A DNA stretch of 64,000 nucleotides. Origin: Propionibacteriaceae bacterium (GTDB lineage: Bacteria; Actinomycetota; Actinomycetes; Propionibacteriales; Propionibacteriaceae). Positions 14,238 through 18,632 of this stretch are shown in pieces (positions within the stretch are counted from its first letter, which is position 1; every line of letters begins with the position of its first letter). The translations under genes were made by a program, and so were the position numbers. The notes beneath the pieces were generated by a model. That model did not search any database and was not told where the DNA came from. It saw only the letters and a program-made list of their open reading frames with translations. The stretch lies in NCBI GenBank assembly GCA_031271975.1, contig JAISUR010000016.1, forward strand, positions 62,001 through 126,000, in the 5' to 3' direction.

Positions 14238-15398
14238 ATGCACGCCCATTCGCATTCGGACGCTCCCGCAGCCGCTAGTCGCACAGTCAAATTCGTCTTG
14301 GCGGGAGTCATGGCGGTGCTGTTCGCCGTGACCGCCGTGGGAGTGGCGTGGCTGTGGCCGGGGCCGGGCGAGGCGGTCGAGAAACGCGCTTGGCTGGACG
14401 AGGGGGCCCAACTCGTTTCGGGCACCCTCGTCGCCGTGTACCCCGACCGGGAAGAAGGGCAGTTGGATGTCCTGCTGGACACCGGGGAGACCGTGATCGC
14501 GCAGGCGAGTTCCGGGGTGCCTTCCGAATCGATGCGCCCCGGAGATTCAGTCCAGCTCATCTCATTCACCGATGAAGCCAACCCCACCGCCGGCTCGGGT
14601 TACATCTTCTTCGACTATCACCGCGAGTGGCCGATGGTGGCGCTCGCGGTCCTTTTCATCATCGTGGTGCTGGCGGTGGCCCGGCTGAAAGGCCTGCTGG
14701 CGGTCGTCGGCCTGGCGGGGGCGCTGACCATGGTGTGGGTGTTCACGCTCCCGGCCCTCACCGCGGGCAAGAATCCGCTGTTGGTCGCGCTGGTGACCGC
14801 CAGTTCGGTGTTGTTCATCGTGATCTACCTCGCCCATGGCGTCTCGGTGAAGTCCACGACGGCGCTGCTCGGCACATTTGCCGGGATCGCCGTGGTCACC
14901 GGCCTGGCCTGGCTGGCCATTGGGGCTGCCAAGCTCACCCCGCTCGTCCATGAAGAAATGACCGAGCTCACCTGGGCGGCCCCGGCCGCCGATGTCAACG
15001 GCGTCCTGCTTTGCGGCATGGTGCTTGCGGGCGTCGGCGTGCTGAACGACGTCACCATCACCCAGGCCTCGGCAGTGTGGGAACTCCGGGCGGCGGCGCC
15101 CAACGACGGCCGCCTCGAACTGTTCTCCCGGGCCATGCGCATCGGACGCGACCACATCGCCTCCACCGTCTACACCATCGCGTTCGCCTACGTCGGCACG
15201 TCGCTGAGCCTGTTGGCTGTGGCATCCACCCTCGACTTCAGCTTGACCAGTCTCCTCACCTTCGAGGACATCGCCGAAGAGCTCATTCCGACGCTGGTGG
15301 CCTCCATTGGGCTGGTGCTCGCCATTCCGCTGACCACGGGCCTGGGTGCGTGGCTTGCCGGCAGGGCGGCGCCGGCGGCAGAAACCAGCGCCAGCTAG
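14238..15398 (+). CDS. YibE/F-family membrane protein
   Basis: A 386-residue integral membrane protein of the YibE/F family, whose biochemical role is not established. After a His-rich cytoplasmic start (MHAHSHSD) there is one helix (about 20-42), an outer beta-type domain (about 50-130, with VLLDTGETVIAQ), then about seven more helices. The family signatures PLVHEEMTELTWAAPAADVNGVLLCGMVLAGVGVLNDVT and MRIGRDHIASTVYTIAFAYVG are clear. The frame is open upstream, but the ATG at 14238 with a TAACAT box is the better start. Its stop codon overlaps the convergent RlmA stop (shared CTAG). Confidence 0.88.
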   Translation: MHAHSHSDAPAAASRTVKFVLAGVMAVLFAVTAVGVAWLWPGPGEAVEKRAWLDEGAQLVSGTLVAVYPDREEGQLDVLLDTGETVIAQASSGVPSESMRPGDSVQLISFTDEANPTAGSGYIFFDYHREWPMVALAVLFIIVVLAVARLKGLLAVVGLAGALTMVWVFTLPALTAGKNPLLVALVTASSVLFIVIYLAHGVSVKSTTALLGTFAGIAVVTGLAWLAIGAAKLTPLVHEEMTELTWAAPAADVNGVLLCGMVLAGVGVLNDVTITQASAVWELRAAAPNDGRLELFSRAMRIGRDHIASTVYTIAFAYVGTSLSLLAVASTLDFSLTSLLTFEDIAEELIPTLVASIGLVLAIPLTTGLGAWLAGRAAPAAETSAS

Positions 15399-16219
15399 CC
15401 GGCCTTCCTTTCCAGCATGTGCACTGTGATGTCAACGTGGTCTTCGATGCTGGCCGCCGGGTGGCTGGTGGGATGGAACGCGTTGGGGCCCATGGCGATC
15501 ACGTCGCTGGCCAGCTCGGCGTCGAGCGCCACCGGATACCGGACTGTTTGCGAGTCGGTTATCCGGAACGGGCCCGATTCCAGTTGTTTCTCCTTGTGTT
15601 CGGCGATGTCCAGCAATTCGTCGCGGGATCGCAAGGCGGCCAGGTGGCCGGAGTTCGGGGTCACGACGATGAGCCGGCCTTCGGGGTGCAGCGCTCGCGC
15701 GAACTCGGCGAGGTTCCGCGGGGCGAATACACACAGGATCAAACCAACGGACTGGTCGCAGATCGGCAGCGCCTGCCACACGTCGGCGACCACGCTGGCG
15801 ATCAACGGCGACGCCTGTGCGGCCGCCCGGGCCGCGGCGGTTGAGACGTCAAGGGCGATGCCCGCGGCACCGTACGGATCTACCACCTCGCGCAGGTAGT
15901 AGGCAGTTCCCGCACCCACTTCCAGTGCCGGATTGTCGACCGACAGGCACAAATCGCTGGTCGGTTGGCGCAAGGCTTGGGCTACGGGAGCGAAAACGCC
16001 GGCCTGGTGGACCCGCCCGCGGGCGGCCACCATGCCGGCGTTGTCAGCGTTGCGCGGCTGGGCGCTGCCCAGCAGGTTCAGGAAACCCTGCCGGGCGATG
16101 TCGAAACAATGCCCATTGGCGCATGTCGCCGTCTTGTCGCCGATGAACAGGGCTTTGGTCGCGATGCCCGGCCGCAAGCAGACCGGGCAGGCCAGGAAGC
16201 CCTGCGCAACCGAGATCAC
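15395..16219 (-). CDS. rlmA: 23S rRNA (guanine-N1) methyltransferase, RlmA family
   Basis: A 274-residue SAM-dependent enzyme expected to methylate a guanine in helix 35 of 23S rRNA (G745 or G748 in E. coli numbering). The N-terminal zinc ribbon uses CPVC at residues 11-14 and CANGH near 33-37. The SAM-binding motif is LEVGAGTAYYLREV (about 100-113). GHCFDIARQGFLNLL and DNAGMVAARGRVHQAGVFAPVA are characteristic of RlmA/TlrB-type proteins. GTG at 16219 is taken as the start; it follows the hsp20 stop by six bases, so it may be read from the heat-shock promoter. Confidence 0.9.
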   Translation of the reverse strand: MISVAQGFLACPVCLRPGIATKALFIGDKTATCANGHCFDIARQGFLNLLGSAQPRNADNAGMVAARGRVHQAGVFAPVAQALRQPTSDLCLSVDNPALEVGAGTAYYLREVVDPYGAAGIALDVSTAAARAAAQASPLIASVVADVWQALPICDQSVGLILCVFAPRNLAEFARALHPEGRLIVVTPNSGHLAALRSRDELLDIAEHKEKQLESGPFRITDSQTVRYPVALDAELASDVIAMGPNAFHPTSHPAASIEDHVDITVHMLERKAG

Positions 16220-16225
16220 GGCGAG

Positions 16226-16657
16226 TTAGTCTGCCACAGATCCTTCGATCTGCTGGGCCGAATCAGCATGGCTCACGGAGATCTTCCGCGGCTTGGCCTC
16301 TTCGGCCACTGGAATCTGCAGCGTCAGCACGCCGTCGGCGTAGTTGGCGGCGATCTTGTCCAGCGCCACCCCGTAGCCCAGAGTCAGTTGCCGGGCGAAT
16401 GTGCCGGCGGGGCGCTCCCGCACCAGCCACTTCTGCTCGCCATTCTGCACGGAGGCGCGCTCGGCGCGAATAGTCAAGGTGCGCTCGTCGACGTCAACGT
16501 CGATGGAAGCCGGATCCACGCCAGGCAGGTCGATCTTGGCCACGAACGAGTCGCCTTCCCGGTACAGATCCATCGGCATCGCAGTGCTCGCCGGAGTCCT
16601 GTTGAAGTCTCCGAACCAGCGGTCTACTTCGCGGAATGGGTCGAATGCACGTGCCAT
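16226..16657 (-). CDS. Small heat-shock protein, Hsp20/alpha-crystallin family
   Basis: A 143-residue ATP-independent chaperone. The alpha-crystallin domain occupies residues about 30-125, with the strand LPGVDPASIDVDVDERTLTIRAER, the motif FARQLTLGYGVALDKIAANYADGVLTLQIPV close to the family consensus, and an N-terminus (FDPFREVDRWFGDF) typical of the class. AAGGAG precedes the ATG at 16657; the longer frame to 16747 would read through the promoter and operators and is rejected. A CIRCE element and a HAIR-like element upstream indicate repression by both HrcA and HspR. Confidence 0.95.
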   Translation of the reverse strand: MARAFDPFREVDRWFGDFNRTPASTAMPMDLYREGDSFVAKIDLPGVDPASIDVDVDERTLTIRAERASVQNGEQKWLVRERPAGTFARQLTLGYGVALDKIAANYADGVLTLQIPVAEEAKPRKISVSHADSAQQIEGSVAD

Positions 16658-16683: not shown

Positions 16684-16710
16684 TTAGCACTCGGACCTCC
16701 CGAGTGCTAA
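16684..16710 (-). promoter_or_regulatory. CIRCE operator (HrcA binding site)
   Basis: TTAGCACTC-N9-GAGTGCTAA is a perfect match to the CIRCE consensus. It lies just downstream of the proposed -10 box of hsp20 and covers the expected transcription start, so bound HrcA would block initiation. Confidence 0.95.
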
Positions 16711-16714
16711 TACG

Positions 16715-16743
16715 AGTATGCAACGGACTCGCGCCGAAATCAA
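16715..16743 (-). promoter_or_regulatory. hsp20 promoter
   Basis: On the minus strand TTGATT (16743-16738) and CATACT (16720-16715) are separated by 17 bases, a fair vegetative promoter. It sits exactly between the HAIR-like box upstream and the CIRCE box downstream. Confidence 0.65.
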
Positions 16744-16748
16744 GCAAG

Positions 16749-16767
16749 TTGAGTCAATAAGACTCAA
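16749..16767 (-). promoter_or_regulatory. HAIR-like operator (HspR binding site)
   Basis: TTGAGT-N7-ACTCAA matches the core of the HspR inverted repeat CTTGAGT-N7-ACTCAAG. Only the outermost pair differs (G/C instead of C/G). The palindrome extends to 10-bp arms (16746-16770) and lies directly upstream of the proposed -35 box. Confidence 0.8.
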
Positions 16768-16808
16768 CTTTGTTCGGGAACAGATCCATCCGCTGCGGTC
16801 GGGATGAA

Positions 16809-18632
16809 TCAGGCCGCTCGCACCAGGCCCATCAGGTAGCGCATCACGTCGCCACGGCTGATCGTCCCGACCACCTGCCCATCCTGGGTCACCGGGAGCT
16901 TGTTCAGCTTGCGCTCGGCGAACAGACGGCAGATTTCGGGCAACTCGGTACTGCGGTCCACCGAGATCGGGTGTCGGATGGCCACGTCCATGATGTTGGC
17001 CTGCAACAACTCGTCCGCCTTCGCCCGGAAGTCCTTGTCATCGGGCAGCACAGCCGAGAATCCGTCCGTCACGACGCGGGCGTCATGCCGTCCCAGGTAG
17101 CGCAGCAGCCGGCCATCCGTGATCAGTCCCACCAGGTTGCCCTCCTTGTCCACCACGGAGATGCCGCTGGTCTTGTATTCGATGAGCTTGTCGATGACGT
17201 CGGCCAGCGACGCGGTGGACTCGATCGTGTAGGGCGGTGTGCGCATGGCCTGGTCCAGGTCGAACTCCGCCACTTGGGCGGGCCCCTTCTTCTTGTCCCA
17301 CACCCGCACGACCACGATCACGACGCAAAGCACCGCGATGCCGAAGCTCACCCAGTAGGCGGCCACGATCCCGGTCAACTCGCTGCCGGACGAGCCGTGG
17401 AACAGCGACATCACAGTGACCATCACCGCCGTGCCGAACGTCGCGGCGATCATGCGCAACGTGCTGGAAACCGCGTTGCCGTGGCTCAACAGCTTGTTGC
17501 CCAGCTTCTCAATCGCCCACAAGTTGATCGGTGTGTTGGCGAGCATCAGGCCCACCGAGCGCACACAGAACGTCGTGATGATGAACCACAGCGGAGTGTC
17601 GTCGCCGAACAGCGCCATGCCCAGCGAGCCGATCATCAGCAGCGAGACCCCGCTGATCGTCAGGTAGCGGGAACCGAAACGGTCGTGCAGGTTGCCTGCG
17701 AAGTAGCCGACGATGGCGCCCATGACCGCCCCTGGCATCATCACAATCCCGGAAATGGTCGCCGACATGCCCCGCACATTCTGGATGTACAGCGGGAGGG
17801 TCACCGCGGCGGCCGTCAGCGAGGCGGAAACCAGCATCGCCACGATTGTCCCGGTCAGAAACTGCTTATCCGCCAACACGCGCAACTGCAGGACCGGCGT
17901 ATCCATGTGCAACTGGCGGCGCGCGAAGAACACCAACACGGCGGCGCCGAAGGCGATGGTGAGCACGCCCGCCACCGGCTGGTTGCCCACCTCAGACAGG
18001 CCATACAGCAGCGCGAACAAGCCGATGGAACACAGCGCCAGCGACAGCTTGTCCAGCTTCGGCCGTGTCAGTTCGCCCACGTCTGTGAGCCACAGTCCCC
18101 CCAGCACGAGAATCACCAGCGCCAGAAAAGCCATGATGAAGAACATGAGGTGCCAGCCGACGGAGTCGGTCAGGATGCCGGACACCACCGGCCCGATCGC
18201 TGGCGCGAACATCGTCACCAGCGTGAACAGGCCCATCGCCGCGCCGCGCCTTTCCCGCGGGAACACCAGCATCATGATCGTGATCGACATCGGCATCAGC
18301 ACGCCCGCGCACACGGCGGTGAGCAACCGCCCGGCCAGCACCAGCGCGAAGTTCGCCCCCCAGCCCGCGAGCAGGCTGCCCGCCACGAACAGCCCGAAGA
18401 TGGACATGAAGAGCTTGCGTGTGGAGAACCTGTCCATGAGGAATGCGGTGACCGGGATTACCAGCGCGTTCACCAGCGTGAACCCGGAGATCAGCCACTG
18501 CGCGGTGGTCGCGGACACACGCAACTCGGCCATTATCGCGGGCAAGGCGGGGTTCAACAGCGTCTGGCACAGCACAGACACAAATGCCCCCGCGACCAGC
18601 ACCGCGACAGTGATGCGTTGCTTCTTGACCAT
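16809..18632 (-). CDS. MFS transporter (DHA2-like) fused to a C-terminal CBS-domain pair
   Basis: A 607-residue protein. Residues about 1-455 form a 14-helix drug:H+ antiporter-type transporter, with PALPAIMAELRVSATTAQWLISGFTLVNA and FPRERRGAAMGLFTLVTMFAPAIGPVVSG as DHA2 signatures. Residues about 478-605 form two CBS units (TIESTASLADVIDKLIEYKTSGISVVDKEGNLVGLITDGRLLRYLG and HPISVDRSTELPEICRLFAERKLNKLPVTQDGQVVGTISRGDVMRYL). CBS pairs bind adenosyl ligands, so transport may respond to nucleotide status. AAGGGAG precedes the ATG. Substrate unknown. Confidence 0.92.
   Translation of the reverse strand: MVKKQRITVAVLVAGAFVSVLCQTLLNPALPAIMAELRVSATTAQWLISGFTLVNALVIPVTAFLMDRFSTRKLFMSIFGLFVAGSLLAGWGANFALVLAGRLLTAVCAGVLMPMSITIMMLVFPRERRGAAMGLFTLVTMFAPAIGPVVSGILTDSVGWHLMFFIMAFLALVILVLGGLWLTDVGELTRPKLDKLSLALCSIGLFALLYGLSEVGNQPVAGVLTIAFGAAVLVFFARRQLHMDTPVLQLRVLADKQFLTGTIVAMLVSASLTAAAVTLPLYIQNVRGMSATISGIVMMPGAVMGAIVGYFAGNLHDRFGSRYLTISGVSLLMIGSLGMALFGDDTPLWFIITTFCVRSVGLMLANTPINLWAIEKLGNKLLSHGNAVSSTLRMIAATFGTAVMVTVMSLFHGSSGSELTGIVAAYWVSFGIAVLCVVIVVVRVWDKKKGPAQVAEFDLDQAMRTPPYTIESTASLADVIDKLIEYKTSGISVVDKEGNLVGLITDGRLLRYLGRHDARVVTDGFSAVLPDDKDFRAKADELLQANIMDVAIRHPISVDRSTELPEICRLFAERKLNKLPVTQDGQVVGTISRGDVMRYLMGLVRAA

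Follow-up and report, generated by a model that had tools for sequence, protein, structure and literature searches.

The hsp20 locus and its promoter

The window, i.e. the whole 64-kb stretch of DNA that was analysed, belongs to a 2.7-Mb genome of 99.86% completeness and carries on its minus strand a small heat-shock gene, hsp20, together with a compact promoter region bounded by two operator sequences. The genes and features of the locus are as follows.

15395–16219, minus strand: rlmA-like gene for a 23S rRNA guanine-N1 methyltransferase, starting at a GTG 6 nt beyond the end of hsp20
16226–16657, minus strand: hsp20, encoding a 143-aa small heat-shock protein with an alpha-crystallin domain (Pfam HSP20, 2e-20)
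16657 and 16228–16226, minus strand: ends of hsp20, the ATG at 16657 and the stop codon TAA at 16228–16226
16684–16710, no strand: CIRCE (HrcA site), matching 18/18 consensus positions, which begins 4 nt past the -10 and lies over the predicted transcription start
16715–16720, minus strand: predicted -10, CATACT, conserved in congeners (genus consensus CAnACT)
16738–16743, minus strand: predicted -35, TTGATT, with a 17-nt spacer (in the genus mostly TTGATT, TTGAAT or TTGAAA)
16746–16770, no strand: HAIR (HspR site), a 25-bp perfect inverted repeat, AAGTTGAGTC-N5-GACTCAACTT, centred at about -50
16809–18632, minus strand: upstream gene for an MFS transporter fused to CBS domains, co-oriented with hsp20 and outside the promoter module

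Read toward hsp20, the region consists of AAGTTGAGTC TTATT GACTCAACTT (16770–16746), TTGATT (16743–16738), 17 nt, CATACT (16720–16715), 4 nt and TTAGCACTC-N9-GAGTGCTAA (16710–16684), and a purine-rich, ribosome-binding-site-like GGAGAG stretch lies between CIRCE and the ATG. The original prediction, of a promoter squeezed between a perfect CIRCE right after the -10 box and a HAIR-like TTGAGT-N7-ACTCAA just before the -35 box, agrees with this arrangement: CIRCE has 0 mismatches, the HAIR core (16749–16767; 12/12 bases, 0 mismatches) lies 5 nt before the -35, and TTGATT-17-CATACT is located between the two. The perfect HAIR repeat reaches 10-bp arms, and just four distinct perfect inverted repeats in the 64-kb window have arms of 10 bp or more and a loop of 3–9, the two operators being among them. 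No CIRCE match was found in the shuffled window, even at ≤3 mismatches.

A strict consensus promoter scan did not call the hsp20 promoter, the -10 of which (CATACT) is imperfect; the promoter was instead predicted from the conservation of its -35 and -10 in congeners (see below). Transcription is expected to start near 16708, as judged from the predicted -10, and relative to this position CIRCE extends from about -2 to +25 and HAIR from about -59 to -41.

Since only 6 nt separate hsp20 from rlmA, a gap also given in the original prediction, the two genes are probably co-transcribed in the source species. The rlmA product is RlmA/Erm32-like, with its best profile matches below the curated cut-offs. 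In the upstream gene, two CBS domains are located at the C-terminus of the MFS transporter domain.

HspR, HrcA and their sites in the source genome

The original prediction presupposed that hrcA and hspR occur in the rest of the genome, and both are present. HspR is encoded directly after dnaJ in the order dnaK-grpE-dnaJ-hspR (NCBIfam HspR equivalog, 143 bits vs. a cut-off of 105), and HrcA is encoded by a gene with a CIRCE just upstream (Pfam, 172 bits vs. a cut-off of 22.2). A search for other sites, likewise proposed with the prediction, located HAIR (≤1 mismatch, whole genome) at 3 places, i.e. clpB, dnaK and hsp20, and CIRCE (≤3 mismatches, whole genome) in the groES-groEL1 region (two sites, just before the GroEL ORF of L018) and at groEL2 (two sites), hrcA and hsp20. 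The hsp20 promoter is the sole promoter in the genome with both operators.

On its own, the HAIR core is so short that chance could produce it in a 2.7-Mb genome, and the 12-base core allowing 1 mismatch was not enriched genome-wide (3 places vs. 5 in the reversed-pattern control). Because this count was not above the control, it was dropped as evidence against chance, and position and conservation were used. On these grounds HAIR is credible, since its three places, dnaK, clpB and hsp20, are canonical HspR targets and the site is conserved. The extended form of the hsp20 site also resembles that at clpB and dnaK; the outermost C/G of the CTTGAGT-N7-ACTCAAG type is G/C at hsp20 and likewise at the other two, and G/C here also falls within the bifidobacterial consensus AAAsTTGAG..CTCAAsTTT (PMC9004370). 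The three sites differ in their placement, however. By our own reading, HAIR overlies the -10 at dnaK and comes immediately after a TATTAT-like -10 at clpB (L016, 3962–6577 and 16577–18424), whereas the hsp20 HAIR is located upstream of the -35 and overlaps neither hexamer.

Conservation in the genus and the proposed control of hsp20

A copy of hsp20 was found in 21 of the 30 genomes of the genus, the source genome included, and 20 of these 21 hsp20 promoters contain both operators, HAIR first, with a gap of 36–43 nt (38 nt in 13 of them). The sequence between the operators is conserved in the same proportion (20/21) and consists of a TTGA(A/T)-type -35, 17 nt and a CAnACT-type -10. In the genus alignment, mean information is 1.67 bits in the arms of HAIR and 1.94 bits in those of CIRCE; outside the arms it is 0.63 bits in the HAIR spacer, 0.49 in the CIRCE spacer and 0.41 upstream. 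The one exception (L160, genome G103) is a diverged hsp20 with neither operator, though its genome has both hrcA and hspR. Among the genus genomes that are ≥90% complete and ≤5% contaminated, hrcA is present in 15/15 and hspR in 13/15.

Neither rlmA nor the MFS-CBS gene was found beside hsp20 at any of the 20 congeneric loci. As the neighbours vary while the promoter module is kept, the module travels with hsp20 and is under selection. The same comparison led us to reject rlmA as a conserved heat-shock partner: with the linkage not conserved, no functional heat-shock pairing can be read from the adjacency, and rlmA probably rides along with hsp20 in the source species only.

Judging from the sites and their conservation, dual control of hsp20 by HspR and HrcA is very likely real, and we have considerable confidence that a vegetative (sigma-70-type) hsp20 promoter is under repression by both proteins simultaneously. 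DnaK acts as a co-repressor that aids HspR in DNA binding, and GroEL/GroE aids HrcA. In the scheme of binding, repression and chaperone feedback that we infer, i) HrcA on CIRCE would cover the predicted start and block initiation, ii) HspR on HAIR, just upstream of the -35, would close the other flank, iii) unfolded proteins would titrate DnaK or GroEL and so weaken one of the two locks, and iv) the promoter would be the point at which the DnaK-sensing and GroEL-sensing branches converge.

Promoters under dual HspR/HrcA control are a known type, of which the present one is a further case, those of acr2 and groESL having already been published. The accounts of Mycobacterium tuberculosis in PMC8223512 and PMC7464140 place the dnaK operon, clpB and acr2 (Rv0251c) in the HspR regulon, with HrcA also involved; in these accounts acr2 is like the source hsp20 in gene family (hsp20), phylum and HspR/HrcA control, but differs in that PhoP and SigE also act there. 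At groESL of Helicobacter pylori and Campylobacter jejuni, HrcA is described as occupying the promoter/start and HspR as bound upstream of the core promoter, full repression requiring both (PMC6032397, PMC7464140), and the two repressors are described as binding cooperatively and in contact in C. jejuni, in contrast to independent binding of the H. pylori pair (PMC7464140, PMC6032397). As described there, the groESL and hrcA operons of these species show the same order as the source hsp20, with HspR upstream and HrcA at the start, but they are chaperonin/dnaK operons rather than hsp20, and HspR covers an extended multi-site region.

Graded derepression, i.e. partial on loss of either repressor and full on loss of both, seems to us likelier than a strict AND-type release, because HspR bound upstream of the -35 would be poorly placed to block transcription alone, unlike at the HAIR sites of dnaK and clpB, and because of the published precedents. 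The strict form, put forward in the original prediction, holds that either repressor alone shuts hsp20 fully and that only the joint loss of HspR and HrcA activates it. The core promoter does lie between the two operators, each of which could in principle block polymerase; however, the need for both repressors at the groESL promoters with the same site order comes nearer to a promoter released when either one is lost, and the hsp20 HAIR keeps clear of both hexamers, unlike those of dnaK and clpB, so that we regard the strict form as unlikely.

It is much less probable still that CIRCE is the sole functional operator, with the HAIR-like palindrome either serving the upstream MFS-CBS gene as a weak terminator or representing a decayed operator. 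A terminator scan flagged 16770–16746 (10 pairs, loop 5, T-rich tail), and the CIRCE arms are under the tighter constraint in the genus. However, HAIR is kept in all 20 genus genomes with CIRCE, behind different upstream genes, on which grounds we rejected termination as its main role; TTGAG/CTCAA hardly changes whereas the arms vary in symmetry at the sixth base, as would suit protein binding better than stem formation; and in the rest of the family HAIR is the commoner hsp20 operator. That HspR alone acts on the DNA, CIRCE being mainly a 5'-leader hairpin for mRNA stability or translation, would fit the strong CIRCE hairpin of the predicted leader (-21.2 kcal/mol, z -3.98) and the scarcity of CIRCE at hsp20 in the family, but is highly improbable given that the CIRCE arm sequence is nearly invariant beyond pairing and equals the HrcA consensus, and that the genome has hrcA and further genes with a CIRCE. 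Under the joint repression by HspR and HrcA that we favour, the leader hairpin could have an added effect on the mRNA.

Operator arrangements at other hsp20 promoters

Across the family, 100 regions upstream of hsp20 were compared; HAIR (≤2 mismatches) was found in 82 (3 for the reversed control) and CIRCE (≤4 mismatches) in 26 (0 for the control). The commonest state is HAIR alone (58 of the 100), and most hsp20 genes of the family lack CIRCE. The HAIR-then-CIRCE order occurs elsewhere in the family in genus g7 (3/3, gap 11–12) and at 1 of 6 loci of g22. At least two HAIRs were found in 39 of the 79 family regions outside the genus and in none of the controls. In the sibling genera g4, g13 and g14 (regions L180–L239 and L161–L179), 12 hsp20 promoters lie between two HAIRs with a gap of 33–35 nt, the second of which starts at the -10, in the slot held by CIRCE here. 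These promoters thus resemble the source hsp20 in having two operators that flank the promoter in similar geometry, but both of theirs are HAIR and CIRCE is lacking. Several hsp20 promoters of g13 have three HAIRs.

The presence in these siblings of a second HAIR in the CIRCE slot suggests operator exchange at a fixed geometry. We tentatively propose, as a reading somewhat short of an even chance, that the hsp20 promoter of the family is a fixed two-slot frame, with one slot upstream of the -35 and the other downstream of the -10, that the downstream operator was exchanged between HAIR and CIRCE, in either direction, and that Micrococcales have the opposite order. If so, the exchange would have turned a doubly HspR-clamped promoter into one answering two chaperone-sensing repressors, or the reverse.

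A wider scan of one genome per species (84,980 species) for the strict pair (HAIR-N13..43-CIRCE) yielded at least 117 loci. Among the 117 loci listed, 100 precede hsp20 by blastp, 94 of them CIRCE-first and 6 HAIR-first; five precede groEL (in Actinomycetota and Arcobacter/epsilonproteobacteria) and one precedes dnaJ. The remaining 11 listed loci had no blastp assignment, and at least one of them, L125, encodes hsp20. The CIRCE-first pair at hsp20 was found in Microbacteriaceae, Arthrobacter, Kocuria and relatives (L023–L139, Micrococcales), where the same two operators as in the source hsp20 occur in reverse order with 13–18 nt between the searched cores. By our reading of the consensus of this reversed layout, CIRCE spans an apparent -35 (TTGGCA) to an apparent -10 (TAATnT), and the start is covered by HAIR. 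In the hsp20 tree the CIRCE-first loci are split from the rest (SH-aLRT 100), and support inside the family is weak.

Of 297 genomes drawn evenly from the class, 2 had the strict pair, a lower bound in that most congeners carry one HAIR mismatch. Two extreme views were excluded by these counts, namely that dual control exists only in this gene (the pair precedes hsp20 at 100 of the 117 listed loci) and that the pair is common everywhere in Actinomycetes (2/297). The pair is, then, uncommon overall and fixed in particular lineages. The original prediction had described dual control as rare, with mycobacterial acr2 as its precedent; the rarity holds across the class, but within the genus the pair is the rule, and many Micrococcales genera also have it, so that acr2 is not the sole parallel.

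The most interesting part is therefore comparative: one frame occupied by HAIR/HAIR or HAIR/CIRCE, with the reverse order in Micrococcales. The hsp20 promoter is a conserved, compact natural promoter at which two chaperone-sensing repressors would meet, and we found no published description of it for these lineages. Its sister promoters (HAIR-HAIR, HAIR only, CIRCE only and reversed order) allow testing of how operator order and identity set heat-shock logic and threshold.

At many hsp20 genes of the family (L163, L165, L214, L222, L224 and others), an operator is located near a GGAATA sequence with a GTT motif about 17 nt further on, an arrangement that resembles an ECF sigma (SigE/SigH) promoter and not a sigma-70 promoter. 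At L165, CIRCE sits on the -10 of the ECF-like promoter.
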